A DNA stretch of 64,000 bases from Chloroflexi bacterium OLB13 (lineage in GTDB: Bacteria > Chloroflexota > Anaerolineae > Aggregatilineales > Phototrophicaceae): contig JZRA01000068.1 in assembly GCA_001567485.1 (NCBI GenBank), positions 124,001 to 188,000 of the forward strand. Direction: 5' to 3'. Made by a program: the position numbers and the translations under genes. The notes under the pieces were generated by a model. The model made no database searches, was not told where the DNA came from, and saw nothing but the letters and a program-made list of their open reading frames with translations. Positions 45,640 through 55,526 of this stretch are shown piece after piece. Numbering within the stretch: position 1 is the first letter of the stretch; every line of letters begins with the position of its first letter.

Positions 45640-46353
45640 TCAGAAGATCAGCGACAGACCCAATACGATGAGCGCAATCTGCACCGCGCGGCGAAAGCCC
45701 TGCGGGCTGATAAATCGATCCAGCCACATGCCGGCCAACAACCCGCCCAGCATCGCAACCGTTGCCACCGCCGCCACCTCGAACACCTGCGGCGTATAGC
45801 GTCCGTTCAGCGCGTGCGAGGCGATCACGATCGGGGTGTTGACGATGAACGCGCCTTGAATGTTGGCCTTGAACTCGCTGGGCGTCCAGCCCTGCGTCGC
45901 GCCATAGACCACATAGGGCGGCCCGCCGGTGTTGAACGCGCCGCTGAGCAGGCCCGACGCGCCGCCAAAGAGGTAGCTCCAGCGCGGGTTGGCGATACGC
46001 GGCATGTGCGGACGGGTCAGCGAATACGCGCCATAGCCGGCGACAACGACGCCGAGGATCGCCAGAATTGCGGCCTCTGGCAGGCGCGGGCCAATCGCGG
46101 CCCCGACCGGGATCAACAGGACGGAGGCAGCAACGAGACGCCAGACGCGACCCACCGAAAACGAATGGCGGTAGCGCGCCATCATCGCGATCTCGGAGAA
46201 CAAGACTGCGACGGCGAACATCGGCGCGGCGACGGCGAGACCGAGCGTCTGCACGAGGACGGGCATTGACACGAGCGCCGAACCAAAGCCGGTCAACCCC
46301 TGAATCAACCCCGCGAGGATCATGATGAGTGCGACGACGACCGTGTCCGGCAC
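45640..46353 (-). CDS. TSUP (TauE/SafE) family membrane transporter
   Basis: 237 residues with about eight hydrophobic segments in two related halves. Each half has the glycine-rich TSUP motif: LAGLIQGLTGFGSALVSMP near the start and FGGASGLLSGAFNTGGPPYVVY in the middle. The family exports sulfite, sulfoacetate or other organosulfur and small organic anions. The start is GTG at 46353 with AAAGG seven bases upstream; no ATG fits. It leads pgl by 17 bases, an odd but probable operon pair. Confidence 0.9.
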   Translation of the reverse strand: MPDTVVVALIMILAGLIQGLTGFGSALVSMPVLVQTLGLAVAAPMFAVAVLFSEIAMMARYRHSFSVGRVWRLVAASVLLIPVGAAIGPRLPEAAILAILGVVVAGYGAYSLTRPHMPRIANPRWSYLFGGASGLLSGAFNTGGPPYVVYGATQGWTPSEFKANIQGAFIVNTPIVIASHALNGRYTPQVFEVAAVATVAMLGGLLAGMWLDRFISPQGFRRAVQIALIVLGLSLIF

Positions 46354-46498
46354 GGGGATGCCTTTCGTTCGATGACGCTGGACAAGGAAGCAAGGTGTGT
46401 CCGGCGAGCCGCTGCTGACTTAGAGTATACAGCGTCGTCTCAGAAAAAAGCGCCGGAGTCGAACCACTGTGATGTGGGCGTCGACCTCATCTCTACCT

Positions 46499-46557
46499 TT
46501 TCTTGACCATTCTCCACTCCATACTGACCCCATTTTGACCCCTGCAGGGCATACACT
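46499..46557 (+). promoter_or_regulatory. TTGACC-repeat promoter module upstream of usp (copy 1)
   Basis: TTTCTTGACC (46499-46508), 24 bases, TTTTGACC (46533-46540), 11 bases, then TACACT (46552-46557). The same blocks with identical spacings recur before the kdp genes. The two TTGACC units are 32 bases apart, about three helical turns. This looks like an activator site, KdpE being the obvious candidate. The remainder of the 46354-46647 gap shows nothing else I recognise. Confidence 0.6.
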
Positions 46558-46647
46558 CGCTATAAGACCGAACGTGGTGCAAAGCGAGGGGACGCTCAAG
46601 CGCGAAGTTGCAGGTGCTTGAGCGATCCCGAATCGGAGAGAAATCCC

Positions 46648-47130
46648 ATGAATACGCAGGTCATTATGGTTCAAATCGGCGAGCGACAGTGGACGATGGA
46701 CGCGCTCCATGCGGCGTGTGTGCTGGCCCGCAGAACCTCCGCGAAGATCGCACTCGTCTTGATGGTTCCGGTTCAACATGCCAGCTGGCTTGGCACGGAC
46801 TGGGGATATGCGACGCTTCCGGCCGAGGTGAAAGGCGCGTTTGCGGATTATCAGGCGACCATCGAAGACTATGGCCTCGACTGCGTTCCTACGCTGTTTC
46901 AGTACGTGACATGGGTGGAAGGCACGCTCCAAGCGGCAGCGCAGGTTGATGCGCGAATTGTGTTTGTTCCCGAACCGCACAGTCACCTGCCACTCTGGAC
47001 TCGTTTCCAACGATGGATGATGCGGCGGCAGTTTGCGCGGCAGGGGCGAGATTGGGCTGCGCCATCGTACCCTCGTGTCGCCGTAGAAGCGGACGAAGTC
47101 AAGCAGTTTCAGTCCGTCAGCACGCCCTGA
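46648..47130 (+). CDS. Universal stress protein-like protein linked to kdp
   Basis: 160 residues. The N-terminus MNTQVIMVQIGERQWTMDALHAACVLARRTSAKIALVLMV fits the first beta-alpha-beta of the UspA fold; the usual ATP-binding G-2x-G-9x-G(S/T) near the C-terminus is not evident, so it may not bind nucleotide. The C-terminal part is rich in arginine and aromatic residues (LPLWTRFQRWMMRRQFARQ). GGAGAG lies eight bases before the ATG. It precedes kdp and shares its promoter module, suggesting a role in K+ limitation response. Confidence 0.72.
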   Translation: MNTQVIMVQIGERQWTMDALHAACVLARRTSAKIALVLMVPVQHASWLGTDWGYATLPAEVKGAFADYQATIEDYGLDCVPTLFQYVTWVEGTLQAAAQVDARIVFVPEPHSHLPLWTRFQRWMMRRQFARQGRDWAAPSYPRVAVEADEVKQFQSVSTP

Positions 47131-47148
47131 TCCCGCGCGTACTTGCAC

Positions 47149-47207
47149 TTTCTTGACCCTTTTCTCGGACATTCTTACGGACTTTTGACCGGCATGCCTG
47201 ATATACC
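47149..47207 (+). promoter_or_regulatory. TTGACC-repeat promoter module upstream of kdp (copy 2)
   Basis: TTTCTTGACC (47149-47158), 24 bases, TTTTGACC (47183-47190), 11 bases, then TATACC (47202-47207). Spacings equal those of copy 1 at 46499. Transcription from here would cover the leader ORF and kdpFABCDE. Confidence 0.62.
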
Positions 47208-47239
47208 GGTGATGTCTCGGCACGGGAAGGAACTACGCG

Positions 47240-47320
47240 ATGGATGTCCTCTTTATCGGCCTTGTGCTGTTGTTCTTTGCCCTCACGTGGGGCTTTGCGG
47301 AACTCTGTGACCGCCTTTAG
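47240..47320 (+). CDS. 26-residue hydrophobic leader protein upstream of kdpF
   Basis: A short frame reads MDVLFIGLVLLFFALTWGF then AELCDRL, a single membrane helix with a charged C-terminus. AAGGA lies nine bases before the ATG. Similar tiny ORFs occur just before kdpF in many bacteria and are usually named only by position. It ends 19 bases before kdpF and is in the same operon. It may be a small Kdp accessory peptide. Confidence 0.7.
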   Translation: MDVLFIGLVLLFFALTWGFAELCDRL

Positions 47321-47339: not shown

Positions 47340-47432
47340 ATGACCGTACTCTATGGGATTGTCGGAGTCATCATGCTGCTGCTGTTGGTCTATCTGACTG
47401 TGGCGCTGCTGAAACCGGAGTTGTTCTCATGA
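47340..47432 (+). CDS. kdpF: Potassium-transporting ATPase small subunit KdpF
   Basis: 30 residues, MTVLYGIVGVIMLLLLVYL then TVALLKPELFS. One transmembrane helix, normal KdpF length and the typical ending ALLKPE. KdpF stabilises the KdpABC complex. GGGAG lies just before the ATG and the stop overlaps the kdpA start (ATGA). Confidence 0.9.
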   Translation: MTVLYGIVGVIMLLLLVYLTVALLKPELFS

Positions 47433-49186
47433 CAGCCAATGGATTGCTGCAAATTGGACTCTTTCTCCTCATCCTCGTTGTGGTCGCCAAGCCGCTCGGG
47501 TTGTACATCTATTCCGTGTATGAAGGGAGATCCATTCTTGGCCGTGTGTTCGGGCCTGTTGAACGCGGCCTATACCGTTTGTTCGGCACGCGCGAAGACG
47601 CGGAGATGAACTGGAAAACGTACACCCTTGCGGTTCTGGCATTCAGTCTGGCAAGCGTTATCCTGCTCTACGCGCTCCAACGCCTACAGGGGTCTCTGCC
47701 ACTGAACCCGGAGCACCTCGGCGCAGTCTCGCCCGATTCGTCGTTCAACACCGCGGCCAGTTTCGTCACCAATACCAACTGGCAGGGCTACGCTGGCGAA
47801 TCGACGATGAGCTATCTCACTCAAATGCTTGGGCTGACCGTGCAAAATTTCGTCTCGGCGGCTGTTGGCATGGCGGTGCTGATGGCGTTCATCCGGGGGT
47901 TTGTGCGTCAAACAGCAACCACGTTAGGAAACTTCTGGGTCGACCTCACGCGCGGCACCCTGTATATCCTGCTGCCGATGGCGATTGTGGTTTCGCTGGT
48001 GATCGTCTCTCAGGGCGCGGTGCAGAACCTCTCGCCGTATCAGACTGCGCAGGTGTTGGATGAAATCGCACAGGGCGATGCGGACGGCGCTTCGACGACG
48101 GAGCAAATCCTTGCTATGGGGCCGGCCGCATCCCAAGTCGCGATAAAGCATCTGGGGACGAATGGCGGCGGCTTCTTCAACGCGAATGCAGCGCACCCGT
48201 TTGAGAATCCGACCCCGCTGACGGACTTGATCCTTATTCTCGCTGAAACGGTGATCGCCACTGGCCTCACGTATACCTTCGGCAAGATGGTGGGTGACAC
48301 CCGTCAAGGATGGGCGATTCTCACTGCGATGCTCATCGTCCTTGCCGTGTTTATGACTGGCGCGTATGCGGCAGAGGCCGCGGGGACGCCCCAACTGGAA
48401 GCCTTGGGTGCGGATGTCGTGGCGAGTGATGTCAACCCCGGCGGCAACATGGAAGGCAAAGAGACCCGCTTTGGGATTGCCCGTTCGGCGCTGTTTGCCA
48501 CGGCGACAACCGCCACGTCCACCGGCGCGGTCAATACGATGCACGACTCGCTCACTCCGCTCGGCGGGCTGGTGACACTGTTTATGATGCAGATGAGCGA
48601 GTCCGTCCTCGGCGGCGTGGGATCGGGCTTATACAGCGGAATGTTGATCTACGCTATCGTCGCGGTCTTCATCGCCGGGCTTATGGTTGGGCGGACACCC
48701 GAATATCTCGGCAAGAAGATCGAGGCATTCGAGATGAAAATCGCGTCCATCATCATTCTCGTCATGCCAGCGCTGGTGCTCGGATTCACCGCTCTGGCGG
48801 TCATTAGCGCGGATGGCGCGGCGACCATTTACAACACCGATCCGCCGGCGCACGGCTTTAGCGAAGTCCTATACGCGTTCACGTCGGGGGCGAACAACAA
48901 CGGCAGTGCATTTGCCGGACTCGGTGCAAACACGCCGTTCTACAACACGACGATTGGGCTGGCTATGCTGTTCGGGCGCTTTTTCCTCATCGTCGCCTCG
49001 CTGGCGATCGCCGGATCGCTGGCCCAGAAAAAGGCCGTCCCCGCGAGCGAAGGCACGCTGCCGACGCATACCGGGTTGTTCATCGCCATGCTGATCGGCG
49101 TAGTGATTATCGTCGGGGCGCTGACGTTTGTCCCGGCGTTGGCGCTAGGCCCCATCGTCGAACACTTGAGCATGATTGTCGGCTAA
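47429..49186 (+). CDS. kdpA: Potassium-transporting ATPase K+-binding subunit KdpA
   Basis: 585 residues with about ten helices. Filter-loop elements are visible: PDSSFNTAASFVTNTNWQGY near residue 105, KHLGTNGGGFFNANAAHPFENP near 235, and later SGANNNGSAFAGL. KdpA is the K+-selective channel-like subunit of the high-affinity ATP-driven K+ pump in the cytoplasmic membrane. The start overlaps kdpF by four bases; kdpB follows after 27 bases. Confidence 0.97.
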   Translation: MTANGLLQIGLFLLILVVVAKPLGLYIYSVYEGRSILGRVFGPVERGLYRLFGTREDAEMNWKTYTLAVLAFSLASVILLYALQRLQGSLPLNPEHLGAVSPDSSFNTAASFVTNTNWQGYAGESTMSYLTQMLGLTVQNFVSAAVGMAVLMAFIRGFVRQTATTLGNFWVDLTRGTLYILLPMAIVVSLVIVSQGAVQNLSPYQTAQVLDEIAQGDADGASTTEQILAMGPAASQVAIKHLGTNGGGFFNANAAHPFENPTPLTDLILILAETVIATGLTYTFGKMVGDTRQGWAILTAMLIVLAVFMTGAYAAEAAGTPQLEALGADVVASDVNPGGNMEGKETRFGIARSALFATATTATSTGAVNTMHDSLTPLGGLVTLFMMQMSESVLGGVGSGLYSGMLIYAIVAVFIAGLMVGRTPEYLGKKIEAFEMKIASIIILVMPALVLGFTALAVISADGAATIYNTDPPAHGFSEVLYAFTSGANNNGSAFAGLGANTPFYNTTIGLAMLFGRFFLIVASLAIAGSLAQKKAVPASEGTLPTHTGLFIAMLIGVVIIVGALTFVPALALGPIVEHLSMIVG

Positions 49187-49213: not shown

Positions 49214-51352
49214 ATGACACTCGAAACACGCGCTCAATCACGCCCGTTGCTTGACCCGCCCATTGTGCGGCAGGCCGTGATTGATGCCTTCAAGAAACTG
49301 AATCCGCGTTTGCAACTGCGTAACCCGGTCATGTTCGTGGTTCTCGTCGGCGCCGCGCTGACCACAATTCTGCTCATCCTCGCGGTGATCGGACAGGGCG
49401 AGGCAGCGCAGGTTGCCCTCGACAATGGTGTATCACCAGAAGCCGCAGCGCAGGCATCGCGCAGCTCGGCCCCTTTCATCTTCGTCATCACGGTCTGGTT
49501 GTGGTTCACCGTGTTGTTCGCCAACTTCGCGGAGGCGATGGCCGAGGGGCGTGGCAAGGCACAGGCCGACTCGCTGCGGAAAACCCGCCGCGATGTCATG
49601 ACCAAAAAGCTGAGCAGCCCACAGCGCACGGCCAAATACACGCTGGTCTCTGCGCCGACCCTACGGAAGGGCGACATTGTGCTGGTCGAGGCCGACGACA
49701 TCATCCCCAGCGATGGCGAGATCATCGAGGGCGTAGCATCCGTTGACGAGAGCGCCATCACGGGCGAAAGCGCGCCGGTGATACGCGAAAGCGGCGGCGA
49801 TCGCAGCGGAGTCACGGGGGGTACGCGCGTCTTGTCGGATTGGTTGATTGTCCAGATAACGGCCAATCCCGGCGAAGCGTTCCTTGACCGCATGATTTCG
49901 TTGGTCGAAGGCGCCAAACGCCAGAAAACCCCGAATGAGATTGCGCTCAGCATCCTGCTGTCCGTATTCACGATCATCTTTCTGCTAGCGACGATGACGC
50001 TCCTGCCGTACTCGATTTACGCGGTCAGCGCCACGGGTGAAGGCTCCCCGATCACCGTGACCGTACTGATCGCGCTGCTCGTTTGCCTGATCCCAACGAC
50101 CATCGGCGGGCTGCTGTCCGCCATTGGGATCGCAGGGATGGATCGCATGATTCAGGCGAACGTGATTGCCATGTCCGGGCGCGCGGTTGAAGCGGCAGGT
50201 GATGTGGATGTTCTCTTGCTGGACAAGACCGGGACAATCACGCTGGGTAATCGTCAGGCGACCGAGTTCATACCGGTTCAGGGCGTGACAGCTGAACAAC
50301 TCGCTGACGCAGCGCAGATCGCCTCACTTGCCGATGAAACGCCGGAAGGGCGCAGCGTTGTCGTGCTGGCGAAGGATAAGTTCAAGATTCGCGAGCGCCA
50401 GATTCATGAGCTAGGCGCGACCTTTATCCCCTTTACCGCCCAAACCCGGATGAGCGGCGTGGATTTGGACGGCCGTCACATTCGCAAAGGCGCGGCAGAC
50501 GCCATCAGGGCGTATGTCGAGGAACAGGGTGCGCATTTCCCGCAGGCGGTACAGACCGTCGTCGACGACATCGCGCGCAAAGGCGCGACGCCGCTGGTCG
50601 TGGCGGAGAACAAACGGGTGCTTGGTGTCATTCAGCTCAAGGACATTGTGAAGGGCGGCATCAAGGAACGCTTTGGGGAACTGCGCCGAATGGGGATCAA
50701 AACGGTGATGATTACCGGGGACAACCTGCTCACGGCCGCAGCGATCGCCGCCGAGGCAGGCGTCGACGACTATCTGGCGCAGGCGACACCGGAAGCCAAA
50801 TTGAAGCTGATCCGCGAGCAGCAGCAGGGCGGCCGGCTGGTGGCGATGACGGGCGACGGCACGAATGATGCGCCGGCATTGGCGCAAGCCGATGTCGCGG
50901 TGGTCATGAACAACGGGACACAGGCGGCGAAAGAGGCCGGCAACATGGTGGACTTGGATTCCAACCCCACCAAACTCATCGAAATTGTCGAGATCGGCAA
51001 GCAGCTGCTCATGACCCGAGGGTCGCTGACGACGTTCAGCATCGCCAATGACGTGAGCAAGTATTTCGCCATCATCCCGGCGGCGTTCGCTAGCACGTAT
51101 CCGCAGTTGGGCGCGCTCAACGTCATGGGCTTGACCACCCCCAACAGCGCGATTGCGTCCGCCGTGATCTTCAATGCGCTCATCATCATCTTTCTGATCC
51201 CGCTGGCGCTGCGAGGCGTCAAGTATCGTCCAGTGCGCGCATCCGCCCTGCTGCGCCGGAACCTGCTTGTGTACGGACTCGGCGGGCTAATCGCGCCGTT
51301 CATCGGTATCAAAATCATTGACGTGATCCTAGCCGCACTGGGCTGGGTATAG
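49214..51352 (+). CDS. kdpB: Potassium-transporting P-type ATPase subunit KdpB
   Basis: 712 residues. The phosphorylation motif DKTGTIT, the TGES actuator motif ([10 protein letters not shown]), the nucleotide-domain region and the hinge [21 protein letters not shown] are intact. KdpB hydrolyses ATP and drives K+ through KdpA. The TGES serine is the inhibitory phosphorylation site known in E. coli KdpB. The loop between the first two helices has a small alanine-rich insert ([17 protein letters not shown]). The gene lies between kdpA and kdpC in one operon. Confidence 0.97.
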
Positions 51353-51376: not shown

Positions 51377-52033
51377 ATGAACGTGAATTCACACGGCAAG
51401 GTGGCGCAGGGGATCAATTGGCGGCAGGTGATCGTCCCGGCGATCGTCTCTATCCTGTTCTTTACCGTGCTGACGGGCTTGCTCTATCCACTGACAATTA
51501 CGGGGCTTGCTCAGGCCATCTTCCCCTATCAGGCGAATGGCAGCCTATTGACCGATGCCGAAGGGAATGTCGTTGGCTCGGAGCTGATCGGTCAGCAGTT
51601 CAACGTGCCGGCGTATTTCTGGGGACGCCTATCTGCAACCGGCCCCGTCCCGTACAACGCCGCAGCGTCCTCCGGTTCAAATCTAGGGCCGATGAACCCG
51701 GCGCTGATCGGGCCGGAGGGAATGATCCAAGCGCGGATCGCCGCACTTCACGACGCGAATGCAGCGGCAGGCGTAACGGTTGATGGCCCCATCCCGGTTG
51801 ATCTGGTCACTGCATCGGGGAGCGGCCTCGACCCTCACATCAGCCCCGCGGCCGCCGCGTATCAAGCGCCACGCATCGCGGCGCTGCGCGGGATTGATGT
51901 CGAACGGGTGCGGGCGTTGGTCGATCAGCATACGGAGGGTCGGGTGTTCGGTATTCTGGGCGATCCACGCGTCAATGTGCTTCGTCTGAACCTCGCGCTT
52001 GATGCGCAGTACCCGCTTCCGGCGGCGCATTGA
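51377..52033 (+). CDS. kdpC: Potassium-transporting ATPase subunit KdpC
   Basis: 218 residues: one N-terminal membrane helix ([21 protein letters not shown]), then a periplasmic-side domain with [25 protein letters not shown] and [17 protein letters not shown], both KdpC hallmarks. It is slightly longer than E. coli KdpC because of an insert after [12 protein letters not shown]. It completes the KdpFABC pump and precedes the sensor genes by about 100 bases. Confidence 0.96.
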
Positions 52034-52136
52034 GCATCGTCGCGCCTGATAAACGACGTGAGCTGGCGATAATGAGTCCCTCGCCAGCTCTGTCTATTCC
52101 TGCGATAAGATGGTGATGCGTGAGATAGGGAAATGT

Positions 52137-54821
52137 ATGGAACACCAGCGTCCTGATCCCGATAAACTCTTGGCGCATGTCAACAACCAAGAAGAACGCA
52201 GCCGGCGCGGTCACCTGAAGATCTATTTTGGCGCGGCGGCAGGCGTGGGCAAGACTTATGCCATGCTGGAAACTGCCCAGATGCTGCGTCAAGAAGGCGT
52301 CGATGTGGTGGCGGGTTACGTGGAGCCACATCGCCGGCCAGAGACCGAGGCGCTGATGCAAGGCCTAGAGGCGATTCCACCGCGCCTCGTTGAATATCGT
52401 GGCATCAAGATCAGCGAATTCGATCTGGATGCAGCGCTGAAACGCAAACCCCACATCCTCCTTGTCGATGAGCTAGCACACACGAACGCGCCCGGATCCC
52501 GACACCCCAAACGCTGGCAGGATGTCGAGGAACTGCTCGATGCGGGGATTAACGTCCACACTACCGTTAATGTGCAGCATTTGGAGAGCCTGAACGATGT
52601 CGTAGCCCAGATCACCGGAACGCTCGTACGGGAAACGATCCCCGATTCCGTCCTCGAACACGCCGACGAGGTGGAGCTGATTGATCTCTCGCCGGATGAA
52701 CTCCTCAAACGGCTGCGCGAAGGCAAAATCTATCTGCCCCATCAGGCCGAACAGGCAATCCAGAGTTTCTTCCGCAAGGGCAATCTGATGGCGCTGCGCG
52801 AGATGGCGCTGCGGCACACGGCTGAACGCGTCGACGAGCAGATGCAGGTCTACCGCCAAGACAAAGCGGTAGCCGAGATTTGGCCCGCGGGCGAACGGAT
52901 CATGGTGTGTATCAGCCCTAGTCCTTTGGCGTCGCGGCTGATCCGGTCAGCGAAACGGATGGCGGCGCGGCTTCGCGCCGAATGGATTACGTTGTACGTC
53001 GAGAGTCCGCGTGCGAAGCAGTTGAACGAGGCGGCTCGTAACCGTGTCATTCAAAACTTGCGCCTTGCCGAACAGCTTGGGGCCGAGACCGTGACGTTGA
53101 GCGGCGATAACGTCGTGGATGAGATTTTGACGTATGCGCGCCAGCGTAACGTCAGTAAAGTCATCATCGGTAAACCCACTCATCCTGCATGGCGCGATCT
53201 GCTTTACGGCTCGATGCTCAACGACTTAGTGCGGCAGAGCGGCTCGATTGATGTGTACGCCATCAGCGGGGAAGCGGATGCCCCCGTCCCAACGGTACGG
53301 GCATTTATGCCGGCGCAGTTCCGATGGGGGCTGCATGTTCAGGGGCTGATGGTTGTCGTGGTCTGCACCCTGATCGCCGCCTTGATGTTTCGATTCTTTG
53401 CGCCGGTCAACCTCATTATGGTGTACCTCGCGGGGACGGTCTTCGTCGCGGCACGGTATGGTCGCGGCCCGTCGATCACGGCTTCGATTGCGAGTGTTTT
53501 GGCCTCTGATTTCTTCTTCATTCCGCCTTATCTCACGTTTCATGCGAGCGACAGCGAATACTTTGTGACCTTTGGAGTCATGCTGTTGGTCGCGCTGGTG
53601 ATTAGCGGCATGACAGCGCGGATTCAAGGACAGGCCGAAGCCGCCCGTGAGCGCGAGAGACGCTCCACAAGCCTTTACGAGATGAGCCGGGCCTTTGCCA
53701 GCACCAGCGAGGAGCACGACCTCACCGTGATTGCGGTACAGCACATTGAAGCCTTGTTCCGAAGTCACGTCGTACTCCTGCTGCCCGACCACCGTCAGCA
53801 GTTCCAGCAGCACGGCACGGACGCCGGGAAGGCGCTGCTGACTCCGCAAGAGTTAGCCGTCGCGCGTTGGGCCTATGATCACGGTCAGGAAGCAGGGTTC
53901 GGCACGCAAACACTGCCGAGTTCAAAGGGGCTTTACCTGCCACTCCTGACGTCAAAGGGCAAGACGGGGGTATTGGGTATCTTTCCCAAACAAGGAGATC
54001 AGCCGCTGTCGCCCGATGCGATGCGTCAGCTCGAAATCTTCGTCAACCAGACGGCGCTTGCGATTGAGCGCGCTCGCTTGGCGGAGGAAACAGAGCGCTC
54101 CCGCCTGCAAATTGAGGCGGAGCAGATGCGGAACTCCCTCTTAAGTTCGGTGTCCCACGATCTCCGTACACCCCTCGCGGCGATTACGGGCGCAGTCACC
54201 AGCTTGCTGCAGCGCGGCCAGTCACTCGACGCGCATGGGCAGGAACTGGCACAGATCGCCTATGAAGAAGCGGAGCGCCTTAATCGGCTGGTGGGCAACC
54301 TGCTGGAAATGACGCGGCTAGAATCCGGCACGGTGACGGTTGAGAAAGAGTGGCAGCCGCTCGAAGAGGTGGTCGGAACGACCCTGCTTCGCCTAGAGAA
54401 ACTCCTTGCCGACCATCCGCTCACGACGGCCCTGCCAGACGATTTACCCCTCGTGCCGATTGACGGGTTATTGATCGAGCAGGTATTGGTCAATCTGCTG
54501 GAGAATGCGGTCAAGTATACGCCCGTGAACACGCCTATTGACCTTTCCGCGTATCGTGAGGGGAATGATGTTTGCGTAGAGGTCGCCGACCGTGGCCCGG
54601 GTATCCCCGACGGTGAAGAAGAGCATATCTTTGATAAGTTCTATCGCCTGCATCAAGCCAATACGAGTGGGGTCGGCCTGGGGTTGGCGATTAGCCGGGC
54701 TATCGTCAAAGCGCATGGGGGCCGCATCTGGGCAAGTCATCGTCCGGGTGGGGGAAGTGTGTTCCACTTTACGATACCCCTTGGCGATAAAATACCGGAA
54801 GTCGACTTTGGAAACGAATGA
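52137..54821 (+). CDS. kdpD: Sensor histidine kinase KdpD
   Basis: 894 residues. Order: KdpD cytoplasmic domain with Walker-type loop FGAAAGVGKTYAML (about 29-42), a Usp-like domain (about 240-375), four helices of the DUF4118 sensor region (about 390-500), GAF-like region, then HisKA with the phospho-acceptor in SVSHDLRTPLAAITG and the ATPase with ENAVKYTP and DRGPGIPDGEEEHIFDKFYR. The start at 52137 is preferred: MEHQRPDPDKLL matches family N-termini and AGGGA precedes it, whereas the frame at 52110 has no SD. It senses K+ limitation and phosphorylates KdpE. Confidence 0.96.
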   Translation: MEHQRPDPDKLLAHVNNQEERSRRGHLKIYFGAAAGVGKTYAMLETAQMLRQEGVDVVAGYVEPHRRPETEALMQGLEAIPPRLVEYRGIKISEFDLDAALKRKPHILLVDELAHTNAPGSRHPKRWQDVEELLDAGINVHTTVNVQHLESLNDVVAQITGTLVRETIPDSVLEHADEVELIDLSPDELLKRLREGKIYLPHQAEQAIQSFFRKGNLMALREMALRHTAERVDEQMQVYRQDKAVAEIWPAGERIMVCISPSPLASRLIRSAKRMAARLRAEWITLYVESPRAKQLNEAARNRVIQNLRLAEQLGAETVTLSGDNVVDEILTYARQRNVSKVIIGKPTHPAWRDLLYGSMLNDLVRQSGSIDVYAISGEADAPVPTVRAFMPAQFRWGLHVQGLMVVVVCTLIAALMFRFFAPVNLIMVYLAGTVFVAARYGRGPSITASIASVLASDFFFIPPYLTFHASDSEYFVTFGVMLLVALVISGMTARIQGQAEAARERERRSTSLYEMSRAFASTSEEHDLTVIAVQHIEALFRSHVVLLLPDHRQQFQQHGTDAGKALLTPQELAVARWAYDHGQEAGFGTQTLPSSKGLYLPLLTSKGKTGVLGIFPKQGDQPLSPDAMRQLEIFVNQTALAIERARLAEETERSRLQIEAEQMRNSLLSSVSHDLRTPLAAITGAVTSLLQRGQSLDAHGQELAQIAYEEAERLNRLVGNLLEMTRLESGTVTVEKEWQPLEEVVGTTLLRLEKLLADHPLTTALPDDLPLVPIDGLLIEQVLVNLLENAVKYTPVNTPIDLSAYREGNDVCVEVADRGPGIPDGEEEHIFDKFYRLHQANTSGVGLGLAISRAIVKAHGGRIWASHRPGGGSVFHFTIPLGDKIPEVDFGNE

Positions 54822-54824
54822 TCT

Positions 54825-55526
54825 ATGGACAGGCCGAACACTGCGGTTGTACTGGTGATTGAGGATGATGCGCAAATCCGACGCTTTCTCCGCGCGACGC
54901 TGGTGGACAATGGCTATCATTACCTTGAGGCAAGCACGGCTCAAGACGGGCTGCGGCAGGTCGGGATGCAGCATCCAGATTTGGTGATCTTGGACTTGGG
55001 CTTGCCGGACATGGATGGGTTGGAAGTGACGCGCAGACTGCGTGACTGGACGTCGACGCCAATTATCGTGCTTTCTGCGCGCAACCGGGAACGCGATAAG
55101 GTCGACGCGCTGGATGCAGGGGCCGATGACTACTTAACGAAACCGTTCGGCACGGCGGAGCTACTAGCGCGGATGCGCGTGGCGATGCGCCATGCCATTC
55201 AGATCGCTCAGGGGACGGACGATCCCGTTTTCACGACAGGCGGGCTGCGCGTCGACCTTGCCCATCGACAGGTGTTTGTCGATGAGACCGAGATTCATCT
55301 CACGCCGATTGAGTACAAGCTCCTGCTTGTCCTCGTCCAGCATGCAGGCAAGGTGGTCACACGCAAGCACCTCTTGCACGATGTTTGGGGGCCGTCCTAC
55401 GAAGACGAAATGCACTACCTGCGGGTTTACGTGGGACAGCTGCGGCGCAAGCTGGAAGCTGAACCGATGCGGCCCCGCTATCTGATTACCGAACCCGGGG
55501 TAGGCTACCGTCTCAAAGTCGAGTGA
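54825..55526 (+). CDS. kdpE: Response regulator KdpE
   Basis: 233 residues of OmpR type. The receiver contains the acceptor aspartate in LVILDLGLPDMDG, the threonine/serine in IIVLSAR and lysine in DDYLTKPFG. The C-terminal winged helix has HAGKVVTRKHLLHDVWGP and ETEIHLTPIEYKLL. It should bind the TTGACC repeat modules at 46499 and 47149, although that link is inferred. It begins three bases after kdpD. The 106 bases after its stop hold a short palindrome (55551-55565) but no clear terminator. Confidence 0.96.
   Translation: MDRPNTAVVLVIEDDAQIRRFLRATLVDNGYHYLEASTAQDGLRQVGMQHPDLVILDLGLPDMDGLEVTRRLRDWTSTPIIVLSARNRERDKVDALDAGADDYLTKPFGTAELLARMRVAMRHAIQIAQGTDDPVFTTGGLRVDLAHRQVFVDETEIHLTPIEYKLLLVLVQHAGKVVTRKHLLHDVWGPSYEDEMHYLRVYVGQLRRKLEAEPMRPRYLITEPGVGYRLKVE

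Follow-up and report, generated by a model that had tools for sequence, protein, structure and literature searches.

We found that two similar regions on either side of a usp-like gene, just before the kdp genes of Chloroflexi bacterium OLB13, are very probably KdpE-dependent promoters of one K+-limitation regulon, since arrays of the same design are conserved in relatives, are linked to K+ genes, and match KdpE sites bound in other bacteria. Judged from comparison across genomes, the array is most likely a Chloroflexota-wide conserved switch before potassium-uptake genes, to which KdpE would bind four times side by side and which would be activated when K+ is scarce. The window, i.e., the whole 64-kb stretch of DNA that we analyzed, carries on its + strand, in this order, the usp-like gene, a 26-amino-acid open reading frame (ORF), kdpF, kdpA, kdpB, kdpC, kdpD, and kdpE. 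The features are as follows.

45640-46353, - strand: TauE/SafE-family exporter gene, divergent from the usp-side promoter
46492..46540, + strand: operator array 1 (putative usp promoter), with TCTACC at 46492, TTGACC at 46503, CTGACC at 46524, and TTGACC at 46535
46552..46557, + strand: -10-like TACACT, 11 nt after half-site 4; probable transcription start near 46564
46648..47130, + strand: usp-like gene, 160 aa, universal-stress-protein fold (predicted structure)
47142..47190, + strand: operator array 2 (putative kdp promoter), with CTTGCA at 47142, TTGACC at 47153, CTTACG at 47174, and TTGACC at 47185
47202..47207, + strand: -10-like TATACC, 11 nt after half-site 4; probable transcription start near 47214
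47240..47320, + strand: 26-aa membrane-peptide ORF (MDVLFIGLVLLFFALTWGFAELCDRL), the first ORF after array 2
47340..47432, + strand: kdpF (PF09604, E 5e-5)
47429..49186, + strand: kdpA (PF03814, E 2e-237)
49214..51352, + strand: kdpB, an ORF whose matches, when it is used as a KdpB query, adjoin kdpA in relatives
51377..52033, + strand: kdpC (NF001454/TIGR00681, above cutoff)
52110..54821, + strand: kdpD, full length (domains KdpD, Usp, DUF4118, GAF, HisKA, and HATPase)
54825..55526, + strand: kdpE (NCBIfam KdpE), an OmpR/PhoB-type response regulator and the proposed activator

As the first-pass annotation had claimed, the pattern TTTCTTGACC-N24-TTTTGACC-N11-TAYACY is present at 46499-46557 and at 47149-47207, 650 bp apart. 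These were its only two matches in the window, even when three mismatches were allowed, and it was absent from 100 of 100 shuffles. The same annotation regarded two TTGACC units spaced 32 bp apart as the shared element, with differing bases in between and with the proximal unit overlapping the -35 position. Both TTGACC units are indeed present at that distance, but the unit was incomplete, as they are half-sites 2 and 4 of four, which follow one another in each module at steps of 11, 21, and 11 bp. Likewise, the remaining bases differ, but the N24 gap is not empty and contains a half-site (in module 1, CTGACC is seen by inspection 11 bp before the final TTGACC); the gap looked empty because the first and third half-sites of both modules are degenerate, those of module 2 more so. 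Where the two modules agree, the positions are mainly those of the consensus. The overlap with the -35 position had to be given up: with N11, the proximal TTGACC falls slightly downstream of where a canonical -35 element would be.

The complete design is apparent from 91 kdpA upstream regions, taken from kdpA loci gathered from the same family, order, and class. In these regions, pairs of TTGAY were found at distances of 11 bp (65 times), 21 bp (17 times), 32 bp (50 times), and 43 bp (35 times), whereas other distances occurred 0 to 5 times and the opposite strand gave 1 to 2 pairs at the peak distances. The element therefore consists of four direct repeats of the TTGAY type, placed at offsets 0, 11, 32, and 43, together with a -10 box, and its consensus reads TTGAYS-N5-TTGAYS-N15-TTGAYS-N5-TTGAYS, followed after N10-11 by TAYAMT or GATAAT as the predicted -10 box. 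The distance from half-site 4 to the -10 box was 10 nt in 44 of 53 arrays and 11 nt in 8 of the 53. Thus, T-rich repeats of 6 bp, in direct orientation and with an 11-bp spacing, make up the operator, although the first and third half-sites of the window arrays are degenerate. The operator ends about 10 nt before the -10 box in a PhoB-like manner, with the -35 hexamer absent.

We scored the two arrays with a matrix derived from 53 arrays, this genome being left out. Array 1 reached 27.8 bits and array 2 reached 14.0 bits, versus about -29 bits for the other strand of the latter region, and no further site in the window exceeded 0 bits. With a sequence-only Infernal model of 33 kdp arrays, also trained without this genome, array 1 was the top site of the whole 4.2-Mb genome (E 7.9e-5), and the weak kdp-side array 2 gave no report at E<=10 in this genome-wide search. 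Conservation upstream of kdp in related genomes, which had been proposed as a check, was evident: 74 of the 91 kdpA upstream regions scored >10 bits on the coding strand, compared with 2/91 for the opposite strand and 0/91 for the reversed motif. Outside the training set, the corresponding values were 21/38, 1/38, and 0/38. A simple half-site score misses arrays that are further upstream or degenerate, and it wrongly made some kdp loci look array-less; several of the seemingly array-less loci do have the array, but further upstream, in front of a gene (usp-like, kimA-like, or regulator) that itself lies before kdp. Some kdp loci have no array in the available sequence (e.g., those of genomes G189 and G246), and kdpE is present in both of these.

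It is scarcely credible that both modules are ordinary sigma-70 promoters in which TTGACC occurs by chance, their likeness being coincidental and without regulatory meaning. TTGACC-N24-28-TTGACC does occur 11 times genome-wide, that is, nine more times than in the modules, the only two occurrences preceding usp or kdp; nevertheless, throughout the class and in further genomes of Chloroflexota, arrays with conserved spacing stand before K+ genes. Neither a sigma-70 promoter of normal spacing nor a terminator was found between usp and kdp, and an ordinary sigma-70 promoter was rejected for want of a normally spaced candidate. Besides, no c-di-AMP riboswitch or other Rfam element was detected near usp/kdp at gathering score.

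We also investigated which genes carry the array elsewhere. In a family-level search (98 genomes, E<=1e-5), 34 sites were obtained, 18 of them before kdpA, 8 before kimA-like genes, 4 before kdpD, 1 before a usp-like gene, and 3 unassigned (one at a contig edge). A phylum-level search in a sample of 301 genomes (E<=1e-4) gave 20 sites, i.e., 13 before kdpA, 4 before kdpE, 1 before trkH, the usp array of the window, and 1 unassigned. Since the model was blind to non-kdp genes, their K+ character is independent support. The identity of the kimA-like genes is based on a PDB match to the K+ importer KimA (6s3k, E 3e-97); the KimA-like gene of this genome itself (L265, G000:C132:46531-48345) has no array, unlike those of many relatives. 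A few arrays (G061:C555, G061:C871, and G415:C26) and weaker sites stand before genes with no evident part in K+ biology. Good arrays before genes likewise not obviously tied to K+ are those at L243:2024, L253:2999, and L239:4727; these genes are one for a possibly exported protein rich in repeats, one resembling alcohol dehydrogenase genes, and an unassigned ORF.

The conservation of the array upstream of kdpFABC in relatives supports the earlier proposal of an activator-dependent promoter that KdpE would recognize. The genome encodes a KdpE with its DNA-binding residues: R193, R200, and T215, shown by mutation to be important for DNA binding by KdpE (PMC3264566), are conserved in the window KdpE, whose best NCBIfam match is KdpE (E 9e-85, below the curated cutoff) and whose best PDB match is E. 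coli KdpE. Alternatively, another OmpR/PhoB-type regulator, such as the KdpE-like partner of a short KdpD-like kinase, might act on the arrays, KdpE being a mere neighbor. Such a regulator-kinase pair adjoins usp-like and kimA-like genes in many loci, 11-bp direct-repeat sites are common to OmpR/PhoB regulators, and this genome has at least 11 further regulators of this type (36-42% identity). We nevertheless consider this alternative quite unlikely, as the window KdpE, encoded downstream of kdpFABC and kdpD, is the only close KdpE of the genome and by far the best match (515 bits versus 190 for the next regulator), and as arrays also occur at loci with only full-length kdpDE (L216-L219). Because many usp/kimA loci of relatives have a second KdpE-like regulator, KdpE proper may not be the one acting at those loci.

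Control by KdpE is further favored over another regulator by the finding that known bound KdpE sites match the dimer core. The matches were tested on the consensus of the class; the arrays of the window depart from that consensus. The E. coli KdpE footprint scored 20.1 bits with the 19-bp dimer core, a value reached by 0 of 20,000 shuffles, and 22.8 bits with the distal-dimer matrix. The minimal Mycobacterium smegmatis KdpE site scored 21.7 bits on the reverse strand with the 19-bp core (again, 0/20,000 shuffles were as high); the full 22-bp matrix is unsuited to this site, a short probe that is out of register, whereas the 19-bp core fits. This 22-bp site, CCGTAAAGAAACCATCAAGGCC, was described by its authors as an A-rich KdpE site without similarity to other KdpE sites (PMC5401905). 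Its reverse complement is TTGATG-N5-TTTACG, a direct repeat matching the Chloroflexota operator. It is a single dimer site, reported with a SigF promoter (PMC5401905), and differs in this from the array. The E. coli KdpE operator of kdpFABC, TTTATA-N5-TTTACA at -72 to -50 (PMC3264566), resembles the array in being an 11-bp direct repeat of 6-bp half-sites with the first two T's invariant and in having a promoter position similar to that of the distal dimer, although it is a single dimer site with TTTAYA in place of TTGAYS and lacks the proximal dimer at -35.

If the start is assumed to be 7 nt beyond the -10 box, the distal dimer of the consensus array lies at about -71 to -55 and the proximal dimer at about -39 to -23. 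By this estimate, the proximal dimer would have a PhoB-like location and the distal dimer would be close to the E. coli footprint, and the array therefore looks like an E. coli-type site with a second dimer at -35. The PhoB pho box and OmpR-family activator promoters have tandem 11-bp direct repeats about 10 nt before the -10 box, which replace the -35 box. The Chloroflexota array shares the tandem 11-bp repeats and the apparent replacement of the -35 box with the pho box, whereas its half-site sequence is different and it comprises two dimers with a fixed 21-bp step. The KdpE operator as such is known, and the four-half-site Chloroflexota form appears to be a variant of it.

On this comparative evidence, we infer that phosphorylated KdpE (54825-55526) binds the four 11/21/11-spaced half-sites as two tandem dimers, low K+ being the presumed signal. 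The distal dimer would sit about where KdpE binds in E. coli (-72 to -50), and the proximal dimer would cover the -35 region to about -23, standing in for the -35 box and recruiting RNA polymerase to a weak -10 element. The usp-side promoter would drive the usp-like gene, probably with read-through into kdpFABC, and the kdp-side promoter would add another start, immediately upstream of the 26-aa ORF and kdpF.

The usp-like gene itself is most likely a member of the Kdp regulon, as the first-pass annotation had suggested. Its homologues elsewhere, many of them far from kdp, bear the same array, so usp appears to hold its own place in the regulon. In 21 usp-like loci, all from Chloroflexota or Anaerolineae MAGs (680 kb, both strands), we found 27 sites >0 bits versus 2 with the reversed motif, and the arrays were mostly located about 85-150 nt upstream of the usp-like gene or just before a following kimA-like gene. 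The two promoters had been described as a duplicated module. Two like modules of equal spacing do exist, but their duplication is doubtful. A true duplication, in which one array was copied with its promoter and so yielded the other, would be compatible with control by KdpE, and it would account for the shared spacing, not least for the N11 before the -10 box, which is the less common distance (8/53 arrays), as well as for the identical TTTCTTGACC and TTTTGACC strings. However, these strings are predicted by the class-wide consensus, so that their identity alone does not establish duplication, the remaining bases differ, and usp-like homologues of other genomes own arrays irrespective of kdp. 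In the genomes with a usp-like gene directly upstream of kdp (G000, G149, G122, G148, G072, G395, and G506), the array, where found, precedes usp, lies in the usp-kdp interval, or occupies both places: in G122 it precedes usp only, and in G072 and G506 the interval contains one. This placement speaks for a separate standard operator at each gene and against module duplication here, which we consider unlikely.

The 160-aa usp-like protein has a Usp fold according to its AlphaFold model (pLDDT 78), for which Usp structures matched first. The best structure was VIA (Z 13.6, rmsd 3.0, 123 aligned), and the Usp domain of KdpD in complex with c-di-AMP (7ji4) gave Z 11.3. The protein had no Pfam or NCBIfam match itself, and we therefore call it usp-like rather than a Usp member; of 21 homologues, 12 matched PF00582 at E<=1, the lowest E being 2.7e-5. 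The ATP-binding motif G-2x-G-9x-G(S/T) is absent from it, as judged by eye in the homologue alignment, and UspA-type members likewise lack this motif. In many relatives, the usp-like gene adjoins a short KdpD-like kinase that lacks both the KdpD domain and the Usp domain, which suggests that the protein may be a detached Usp module; the window KdpD is full length, Usp domain included. A KdpE-like regulator and a short KdpD-like kinase (DUF4118, HisKA, and HATPase) adjoining usp-like/kimA-like genes were seen at L144:7151-9347, and L140, L141, L150, L156, and L164 are similar. The E. coli UspC-KdpD scaffold (PMC3610689) resembles the predicted arrangement in that a stand-alone Usp protein is tied to KdpD signaling, whereas the window usp-like gene has a Kdp-type operator and a divergent sequence. 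A broad Chloroflexota KdpE-type regulon (Kdp, KimA-like, Trk, KdpDE, and Usp-like) with the four-half-site operator, in which the Usp-like protein is a detached module feeding K+/nucleotide status to the kinase, is an extension that we put forward only tentatively.

As of 2017, only four species had a defined site of KdpE binding (PMC5401905). In the open-access literature searched, no account of a Chloroflexota KdpE operator was found. The class-wide operator model, although obtained in another phylum, would unify the E. coli and M. smegmatis KdpE sites, predicts K+-limitation-responsive genes in bacteria that are mostly known through metagenomes, and connects K+ signaling with a divergent family of Usp-like proteins.

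Two minor observations concern the surroundings of the promoters. The TauE/SafE-family exporter gene and the usp-side promoter may have a common intergenic region. The 26-aa ORF before kdpF had no family match in Pfam or NCBIfam, and similar peptides (MD.VF..L.L.FFALSWG...LCE.) precede kdpFA in about 11 other kdp loci.
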